This document shows positions 230-62,724 of a stretch of DNA of 64,000 nt, in pieces; within the stretch, counting starts at the first letter, position 1; each line of letters begins with the position of its first letter. Source of the stretch: Calothrix sp. NIES-3974 (lineage in GTDB: Bacteria > Cyanobacteriota > Cyanobacteriia > Cyanobacteriales > Nostocaceae); contig NZ_AP018254.1 of NCBI RefSeq assembly GCF_002368395.1, positions 4,526,001-4,590,000 of the forward strand, read 5' to 3'. The notes under the pieces were generated by a model, which was not told where the DNA came from, did not search any database, and saw nothing but the letters and a program-made list of their open reading frames with translations. The translations under genes were made by a program, and so were the position numbers.

Positions 230-774
230 CTTTACTTTGCCAAATTTGAATTACATGTTAATTTATAATGACTTATGCAAATAGATATCCAGAATAATTT
301 TAGGGGGTAGGGAACAGAAGGAAAAATAAGCCATTACTCAATGTTTATCGTGAAGTCGTGAGAAATACGGGATTGTGACAATTTCTTTACTTTTGCTGAT
401 ACCTATGTGATTTAACGGGTAAACACTCAAATAATACATCACAAATCACAAAAATTAACTAAATATAGGAATTTGGTTTGATTTTTCAAATTATCTGTGT
501 GAGTAGGGAGTAGGGAACAGGTAGTAGAAATTAGGAAAAACACTTTTTCAGTTTACGGAGTTTTTAAGCGCAAGCTAGGCTAACAGAAATCAAAGATGAA
601 TCCTATATAGTAATCGTATTAATATCTTCAGATAGATATCGCCACGATAAGCTACCATAAAAAAAACTGAAAATCAAGAAAATTCTCTTTACTTTATATT
701 TTGTATTTCTACTTGCTCCTGGATGTGACATTTTCAAAATTAGGAAAATATCAAAATCGAAAAAAACATAATGT
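230..774. other. intergenic, no gene; degenerate repeat copies
   Basis: No credible coding frame. Positions 300-372 look like a degenerate copy of the short TIR element described at 18801 (GGAAAA-TAAGCCATTACTCAA followed by GTCGTGAGAAATA). Positions 500-550 carry the GAGTAGGGAGTAGGGA type of low-complexity spacer sequence seen repeatedly in the window. The rest is AT-rich. Confidence 0.5.
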
Positions 775-18718: not shown

Positions 18719-18923
18719 GTAATATCGATTCTCTTGTACTTTGCAATCAATGAAACTAGAATAATCAATGGTTACAGACCCTAATATGTAGCAAGCATTA
18801 TCCGCATTTCTCACAAAACCCTATAACCCACAGGGAGTAGTGAATAGAAGGAAAATGAATTCGTTACTCAAGGTTTACGACTTACTCGTGAGAAATCCAG
18901 GATTAGCGTAAACGATATAAAAG
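18719..18923 (+). repeat. dispersed repeat A, copy 1 (interrupted)
   Basis: The segment from GTAATATCGATTCTCTTG to GCAAGCATTA, then GCGTAAACGATATAA after the inserted element, matches the uninterrupted copy at 62023-62118 and a diverged copy at 30128-30199. The first 24 bp also match exactly the 3' end of the gene at 54940. Confidence 0.75.
18801..18901 (+). mobile_element. TIR element family B, copy 1 (nested in repeat A)
   Basis: A 101-bp noncoding element with inverted ends containing ATTTCTCAC (18806) and GTGAGAAAT (18888). ATTA flanks it on both sides (18797-18800 and 18902-18905). The uninterrupted repeat A at 62023 has a single ATTA at this point, so this is an insertion with a 4-bp target duplication. 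It has no coding capacity, so mobility would need a transposase in trans. Confidence 0.75.
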
Positions 18924-21253: not shown

Positions 21254-21421
21254 GGAATGCGGAAAGAAGTGATTGTATGAAAATTTGCAGTAAATGGTGT
21301 GGGAGGTTGTTTATGGTGTAAGCATTGCATGTAAGCTACTCACCAATCCCTCTGCATCACATCAAGGAAGGATGTTAGCAAAAAAAAAGATAGGTGTTGC
21401 ACCTACCTTTGAAAGACTTTC

Positions 21422-21562
21422 CCTGGATTTCTCATGAGTAAGTCGTAAGCCTTGAGTAACGAATTCATTTTCCTTCTATTCACTACTCCCGTACAGACGA
21501 CCCGTCGGGTCGTCTGTACTCCCTACTCCCTGTGATTTTTAGGGTTTTGTGAGAAATGCGGG
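21422..21562 (-). mobile_element. TIR element family B, copy 2
   Basis: Reverse-oriented copy, 141 bp, ends CCTGGATTTCTCAT and GTGAGAAATGCGGG. Flanked by TTTC on each side (21418-21421 and 21563-21566), a 4-bp target duplication. A 29-bp palindrome (21491-21519, GTACAGACGACCCG arms) is inserted in its middle. Confidence 0.75.
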
Positions 21563-21576
21563 TTTCTCGATACCTT

Positions 21577-33719: not shown

Positions 33720-33951
33720 GTAAAAGAATGAAGAATACAGAATACAGGAAAAATTACTACTAGTTTGTCTTTTCCCGAGGCGTTCATCTAGAATTTATTT
33801 ATCATCGGTGAATGGTAAGGGTTGAGTTGGGGATTGATTTGCTTCCTACTCCCTGCAATTTTGAGAATTTAGGAAATAGACAAAAACGACATATTGCATC
33901 TTGATAAGTACCATCATAATTTCATCAATATTTCATCAATAAAGGTTAATT

Positions 33952-35229: not shown

Positions 35230-35673
35230 GGTATTGGGTTGAGGATTTTGCATTTCTCACAAAACCCTAAAAGTTACGGGGAATTAGGGAGTAGGGAGTA
35301 GTGAATAGAAGGAAAATGAATTCGTTGCTCAAGGTTTACGAATTACTCGTGAGAAATCCAGGGTAATAAATCTAGGATAGGAGACAATACAGTTCAGTTA
35401 GACTTAAAAGCCTGATTATTGGTTAGGTTGGGTTGAAGAATGTAGAGAGAGGCAGTAGCCCTCGTGGTATGCGTCCCCACGCGGAGCATCGGGACGAGAT
35501 AGTCACAAAAACTGTGTGAACTTATGGGTAAATTTCCACAAAATCAACAGTCTATGCCAAGTCTCAACCCAACCTACAGTTATCTTTAACACCAAGCGTA
35601 TTGGGATAGGAGAGAAATTTCATTTTCTGGAATCTAAAATCCAACATCTAAAATCCAAAATCTAAAATTAACT
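35230..35673. other. 444-bp spacer; TIR element and other repeats
   Basis: Family B copy 3 (35247-35362). Then CAATACAGTTCAG at about 35392, which resembles one end of family F, and AAGCGTATTGGG at about 35594, which resembles an inverted end and may be a decayed F element. A CCCCACGCGGAGCATCGGG segment is at about 35470. A CCAAAATC tandem tract (35635-35668) abuts the hupW start. Confidence 0.55.
35247..35362 (+). mobile_element. TIR element family B, copy 3
   Basis: Inverted ends around ATTTCTCAC (35252) and GTGAGAAAT (35349), with internal GAATAGAAGGAAAATGAATT shared with copies 1 and 2. No target duplication is recognisable, so it is probably an older copy. Confidence 0.65.
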
Positions 35674-36556: not shown

Positions 36557-37484
36557 TTCCTCCTCTCTTGGTAATTCATGGATGTCTATCTATTGGAGAA
36601 ATGGATTGGGATTGCTATATGCGTGACTGTTTTACACTTTGCACGCTGATTGATTTTCCTTGGCGTTTGTTGACTGCTGATGGGTGACAGTAAAGACCTG
36701 GAAATCCCCCGTCTCTTCTAGCATTAACCATCTGTAAGGACAAGCTCACTTTTTGACCGTGTAAAGTATAAACTGGTGATACACGCACTTTTAAAGGCGC
36801 ATACCGATGGTTGCACACGCCGCAATAATTAATTATTCAGATTTTAAAAAACATTTACGAAGCCAAAATTATCAATTTTGACTCTTTTTGCAATCATGTC
36901 GGCGATTGTTTCATCACTGCTATTGTTTGCAATCCTCATCACATAATCCCTGGTTAGACCTATGATAAGGGTAAACAAATAAAAAAAAGCAGTCTTTGAT
37001 ACGATATCTGCACACCTTGAATATTTTATTTTGTAAATTCCTCAGTCTGGAAGCAGAGATTAACTATGAGATTTTTAGTTGATTTCACTATCTCATGCTT
37101 CGGTTAATTCTTGGTAAAGATGAGTATAAATTTTTCCAAATTATTGTTTGGTGTTTAACACTACAAACTCCTAAGAGGATGTTGTAAAAGTCGATTTTAA
37201 TACTTAACAAGCTCGTTTTTTTGGGAGTAGGGAATAAAAAGAAAACTAAGCCATCACTCAACGCTGACCCTTAACTCGTGAAAAATACAGGATTATTTAC
37301 AGTGTCACATATTCTACAATTATAGATGCGCTGTTGCTGCTTTTGCTAATTTTTCAAAACAAAAAGGAGAACTCGAAAATCATGATTTCGGTTCATCCTT
37401 TTTATGATTATTGAAAATAATCAGTATGGAAAGACAGAATACAGGAAACATTATTTTGTGTACCTATATAACTGCCAACCAAGA
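36557..37484. other. 928-bp intergenic region; no confident gene
   Basis: A 67-codon GTG frame (36615-36818, minus) is the only sizeable one and is weak. 37171-37200 (TAAGAGGATGTTGTAAAAGTC) resembles the end at 29970. 37218-37292 is a degenerate half copy of family B. Otherwise AT-rich. Confidence 0.45.
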
Positions 37485-44147: not shown

Positions 44148-44209
44148 CAGTCTGATTTTGGATTTTGGATTTTAGATTTTGGATTGGGGAAAGAATACAG
44201 GATACAAAA

Positions 44210-44319
44210 CCCGCATTTCTCACAAAACCCTAAAACTCATAGGGAATAGTCCGTGACGGGAGTATAGGGGAAATTAGTCCGTCACTCAAGGCTTACAACT
44301 TACTCGTGAGAAATCCAGG
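44210..44319 (+). mobile_element. TIR element family B, copy 4
   Basis: 110 bp, ends CCCGCATTTCTCAC and GTGAGAAATCCAGG, flanked by AAAA at 44206-44209 and 44320-44323 as a 4-bp target duplication. The internal sequence is more diverged than copies 1-3. It lies inside the suf operon spacer. Confidence 0.7.
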
Positions 44320-44447
44320 AAAAGACGGGAGATGTCAAATAAAAATGCACAACAGCTTATCCATCGTTTATTATCTTGACCTACTAGTAGTCCACCGCAC
44401 AATTTCTCAGGGGTTCGTAAGTTGTGGCCGAAAAAGCTTTAATATAA

Positions 44448-62020: not shown

Positions 62021-62118
62021 GCGTAATATCGATTATCTTGTACTTGGCAATAAATGAAACTAGAATAATCAACGGTTACAGCCCCTGATATGTAGCAAGC
62101 ATTAGCGTAAACTATATA
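62021..62118 (+). repeat. dispersed repeat A, copy 3 (uninterrupted)
   Basis: About 98 bp matching 18719-18800 and 18906-18923; it has the single ATTA that is duplicated around the inserted element at 18801. It ends next to family F copy 3. Confidence 0.75.
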
Positions 62119-62128
62119 AGTCCTATTT

Positions 62129-62234: not shown

Positions 62235-62724
62235 AGTCCTGTTGATGAAAAATCCGGGCATGGGGATGGTGACAGATATTCTCAATATAGCGGAGTTTTG
62301 AGGGCTAATTGTAAAGTTAATTTAAAACCAATGTCCGATGATGGCTGTTTCGGTTAGATATGGAGTGTGGATAAATCCTATATTTCTCTCAAGGGAGTGA
62401 TAAGCCTTGAGTAATGGGTTGATTTTCCTATTTGATGTGGAGGGAGTGGGGAGTAGGGAGTTGTGAGTGGTGTAATAATGTGGGACACTTGTGAAGTATT
62501 CAGGAAAAAGGTACTGTTAGGGAAATATTCCACACCTAAACATGGCTGCTAATTTGAATTCTCCGCGACTTCTCTCCACATTTCTCAAAATCTGATCAAA
62601 CTTAGATTCATGGGTTTTGCACTGCGACAAAGTTATGACCAGTTAAAAAGGGTTGAAATACCTTCTGAATAAAGATTACCATATGGGCGATCGCTCTGAC
62701 TCGTGAGAAATGGGGATTCTGTCT

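Follow-up and report, generated by a model that had tools for sequence, protein, structure and literature searches.

Element B is a MITE: it is short, lacks a transposase gene, has terminal inverted repeats and target duplications, shows empty sites and occurs in many dispersed copies. In the window, i.e., the whole stretch of 64,000 nucleotides that was analyzed, one copy is inserted in a second repeat, repeat A. We consider it highly probable (roughly 0.93) that B is a MITE with ends recognized by the IS1380 machinery and mobilized in trans by an IS1380-family transposase. According to this model, a DDE transposase of that family would recognize only the 14-16-bp ends of B, excise or copy the element in trans, and allow it to insert at AT-rich C|TWWA|G sites, duplicating 4 and sometimes 5 bp; at position 18801, B would have landed in the ATTA of an older MITE, repeat A. 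The element is a parasitic mobile element of an ordinary, already known kind, and this example of it is well documented.

The arrangement at the insertion site can be read directly from the sequence, with two ATTA tetranucleotides flanking the 101-bp element that interrupts repeat A (Table 1). The intact repeat A (62021-62118) reads GCAAGCATTAGCGTAAAC at the corresponding point. The first-pass annotation had described this insertion and its empty site in the same window, and both were right to the base. It had also listed four copies of B, three of them with perfect 4-bp duplications (ATTA, TTTC and AAAA), and this holds as well, the copy at about 35248-35362 being the one without a duplication. 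Its list lacked four decayed fragments, and the inverted ends it gave belong to a real element but stop 5 bp short of the true termini. Profile searching recovered nine B matches in the window.

Table 1. Features of MITE B and repeat A in the window; the congener is a second species of the same genus (G001).
Feature	Position	Strand	Remarks
MITE B copy 1, 101 bp, in repeat A	18801-18901	+	ends TCCGCATTTCTCAC / GTGAGAAATCCAGG; absent at orthologous locus of congener
Left target-site duplication ATTA	18797-18800	.	one ATTA at same point of intact repeat A and in congener
Right target-site duplication ATTA	18902-18905	.	sequence and congener comparison
Repeat A (MITE A) left part, broken by B	18723-18800	+	own TAA duplication at 18720-18722
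Repeat A right part	18906-18917	+	own TAA duplication next, at 18918-18920
Repeat A intact copy, 90 bp	62027-62116	+	TAA at 62024-62026 and 62117-62119
MITE B copy 2, 141 bp	21422-21562	-	TTTC at 21418-21421 and 21563-21566; common to congener
MITE B copy 3, with a decayed left end and lacking a duplication	about 35248-35362	+	common to congener
MITE B copy 4, 110 bp	44210-44319	+	AAAA at 44206-44209 and 44320-44323; absent from orthologous locus of congener
Decayed MITE B fragment	295-371	+	nhmmer E 1e-7
Decayed MITE B fragment	33797-33870	-	nhmmer E 1.1e-5
Decayed MITE B fragment	37221-37291	+	nhmmer E 2e-8
Decayed MITE B fragment	62377-62430	-	nhmmer E 9e-8

Copy 2 contains a palindrome that is missing from its orthologue in the congener. 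This perfect 29-bp palindrome (GTACAGACGACCCGTCGGGTCGTCTGTAC, 21491-21519) resembles palindromes in other B copies. Directly downstream of copy 3 (35385-35608) is yet another dispersed repeat, the third, about 220 bp long; it gave 38 BLAST matches in 2.0 Mb of the host chromosome plus the window, internal parts being missing in some copies, and in the congener it occupies more than 30 sites, mostly with 90-95% identity.

Comparison with the congener established that the insertion at 18801 is recent and lineage-specific. The orthologous locus does not have the same arrangement: with flanks that are 90-96% identical, it carries an intact repeat A and one ATTA, and the B insertion therefore postdates the species split. 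Likewise, the copies at 44210 and at 2952943-2953148 are missing in the congener, which has a single AAAA and a single TAGT at the respective sites, while the copies at 21422, 35248 and 2948791 are common to both species. Thus, three of the six tested copies were either inserted after the split or precisely lost in the congener, and the single targets fit insertion better.

The B family was surveyed in 2.0 Mb (1.4-3.4 Mb) of the chromosome holding the window (G000; a single contig of 5.99 Mb). The pairing of B ends is not due to chance, since the window holds one ATTTCTCAC...GTGAGAAAT pair and 100 shuffled versions of it hold none, and exact 9-bp end pairs occur 96 times genome-wide versus 0 times for the reversed pattern. 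The true ends read CC[CT]G[CG]ATTTCTCAC, directed inward at both termini. Searching for non-overlapping pairs of CC.G.ATTTCTCAC with two mismatches allowed gave 78 two-ended copies in the 2.0 Mb, and their flanks are not random: 52 have an exact 4-bp duplication, whereas shuffled flanks gave 2.2 on average and, over 10,000 shuffles, never more than 9. A 5-bp duplication was found in a further seven copies. Because flank matching was far lower at every other offset, the ends of B are fixed at CC[CT]G[CG]. Insertion targets form an AT-rich palindrome, with C at position -1 in 63% of half-sites followed by T/A, giving the consensus C|TWWA|G. The remaining 19 of the 78 copies, which have neither a 4-bp nor a 5-bp duplication, could be taken as a sign that recombination produces or spreads B-like palindromes, or that the ATTA repeats are fortuitous. 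The excess of duplications argues against such an origin and the three precise empty sites in the congener refute it, leaving it a negligible probability.

Profile searching of the 2.0 Mb identified 168 loci with a copy or fragment of B, amounting to 0.8% of the sequence, with no match in the reversed-sequence control. Most copies are 94-141 bp long, and longer ones include nested insertions. The 101-bp element could encode at most 33 amino acids and has no transposase gene. Copy lengths fall into classes of 94, 100/101, 107/108 and 114/115 bp, i.e., 7-bp steps in line with the internal GGGAGTA units, and these point to a heptanucleotide repeat inside B that gains and loses units.

Only three of the 168 loci lie mostly inside ORFs of at least 150 amino acids, whereas 114 would be expected at random placement. 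Together with the ability of the ends to pair into a hairpin, this near-exclusion from long ORFs could mean that B is retained as a terminator, small RNA or regulatory hairpin and that its spread is adaptive. We regard such a role as very unlikely, since the intergenic bias is explained by removal of insertions that hit genes and three of the six copies compared between the species occur in one of them only. A structured-RNA function was rejected on the basis of the absence of any Rfam match and of weak folding, single copies of B folding only modestly better than shuffled sequences (z -1.1 to -2.6).

Repeat A is a second, MITE-like mobile element. It is 90 bp long with ends TATCGATT and TATCGTTT (TATCG[AT]TT), and its matches number at least 45 in the host chromosome and 41 or more in the congener. 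An exact 3-bp T[AT]A duplication flanks 25 of 33 copies and is likely its target duplication; this evidence is weaker than for B because the constrained target gives a shuffled mean of 13.8. The congener holds a copy of repeat A at the site matching window position ~21320, where the host chromosome is empty. Furthermore, copies of repeat A lie within B copies at 1718630, 1820722 and 2952943, an order of nesting opposite to that seen in the window.

A CC start, as in the ends of ISEcp1, combined with a 4-bp duplication raised IS1380 as the candidate partner type of B. Searching 293 genomes of the order with PF13701 recovered full-length transposases in other genera, and the protein matched the NCBIfam IS1380 model (NF033539, E 5.6e-123). 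The cyanobacterial IS1380 elements have ends CCCGGATTTCTCACAA on both sides. Thirty IS1380 loci were of sufficient length for a comparison of ends, and in 18 of them the B motif points inward on both sides, as compared with none of 31 loci of other transposases given the same treatment. Duplications were examined at 20 IS1380 loci of two genomes (G015 and G284), of which 19 gave 21 candidate end pairs; ten pairs have 4-bp and four have 5-bp duplications, against a shuffled mean of 1.3, with two of the 21 being spurious second pairings (loci L320 and L325). The target consensus, C|TWWA|G, equals that of B. From the ends, the duplication length and the target, the autonomous partner type of B was identified as the IS1380 family. 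With similarity limited to the terminal 14-17 bp, so that B shares only its ends with the autonomous elements, B is classified by sequence as a type II MITE.

In one of these genomes (G015, loci L314-L329), two TAG codons, corresponding to Tyr61 and Tyr425 of the reference, recur in almost every full-length IS1380 copy. TAA codons, partly common to several copies, also occur, and many copies have clean duplications. This would be a dead insertion sequence that went on spreading, or else a case of readthrough. As the copies share inactivating stops yet have duplications, it seems that IS1380-family copies can spread even when their gene is defective, presumably in trans.

The search for an autonomous element with the same ends and duplication, which the first-pass annotation had called for, thus succeeded in other genomes, but no such element was detected in this one. 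Neither the host chromosome nor the congener has a PF13701 match over the cut-off, or an IS1380 protein match at E≤1, not even a relic; two weak PF13701 matches belong to elements with other ends. These transposase searches spanned the whole genome. The search for long elements with B ends and a duplication covered 2.0 of 6.0 Mb (1.4-3.4 Mb) and returned only a spurious pair, and neither the B consensus nor its ends had a meaningful blastn match among plasmids and phages. Because the same genome has no IS1380 transposase, B is classed as a MITE with IS1380-type ends and not as an IS1380 element. That an IS1380 transposase was the mover also in this host we infer from sequence likeness. The enzyme may have been lost after bursts of transposition, may reside on a replicon absent from the assembly, or a different mover may have acted.

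One such mover could be a resident transposase of the IS4/IS5/IS701/IS1634 type that came to use similar ends by convergence and acts on B in this host. Many transposases of these types are present in the genome, and B copies have inserted since the two species separated though no IS1380 transposase is present. On the other hand, the ends of multi-copy elements of non-IS1380 type, such as GCTGAAGGGGTGACGAAA or CTATCCATTA, visibly differ, the B motif was not found at both ends of any locus of other transposases, and the ends, duplication length and target of B all agree with IS1380. We therefore give a converged resident system only a slim chance. As candidate partners, IS4/IS5-type (PF01609, 28 matches) and IS701-type (PF13546, three relics) elements were rejected because their ends differ. 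It is unlikely that B is still transposing without a resident IS1380 transposase, be it through an enzyme of a different family encoded in the genome or through brief visits of plasmid-borne IS1380 elements. If true, this would mean that the loss of its partner need not stop a MITE from giving species-specific insertions.

MITEs with B-type ends were also found in Plectonema LEGE 06105, a Calothrix MAG, Rivularia, Richelia and Nostoc, with duplications at 23 of the 35 loci scanned. The nearest named carrier is the Calothrix MAG, whose copies are 86-97% identical to B over nearly the whole element. Outside the cyanobacteria, a Pirellulales MAG (L250, 5075-5156) contains an element with IS1380-type ends, a TTAG duplication and an unrelated interior.

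Several known systems resemble B. The IS1380 family, with ISEcp1, IS1247, ISPme1 and the cyanobacterial members, has similar ends (CCCGGATTTCTCACAA versus CC[CT]G[CG]ATTTCTCAC of B), and the cyanobacterial members have the 4-5-bp duplication and the C|TWWA|G target in common with B; B differs in lacking a transposase gene and in sharing the terminal 14-17 bp alone. For IS1247, 5-bp duplications have been reported (PMC3281130). IS1380 serves as an outgroup for piggyBac (PMC10813416), which like B makes a 4-bp duplication, at TTAA or the variants ATTA, TAAA and TTAG, and has ends often starting with CCC. Unlike B, piggyBac is eukaryotic, and the B target is a preference with no fixed TTAA.

Compared by description, the type II MITEs of Anabaena sp. 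90 (PMC3542288) are short, repeated and mostly intergenic with inverted ends, like B, and Nezha of Anabaena variabilis, as cited in PMC10969869, is likewise a short cyanobacterial type II MITE. In layout only, and in another host, a Porphyromonas gingivalis MITE described as containing a minisatellite (PMC4596501) recalls the 7-bp steps of B. The Anabaena 90 MITEs have no partner insertion sequence in the same genome, and an autonomous mechanism was suggested for them (PMC3542288). In contrast, the partner family of B could be identified across genomes.

What the present analysis adds is this partner-family assignment and the proof of recent insertion. With IS1380 supplied as the partner family by cross-genome comparison, an autonomous mechanism is unnecessary for the B family. 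For the genus, the copies of B and of repeat A are usable as insertion-polymorphism markers.
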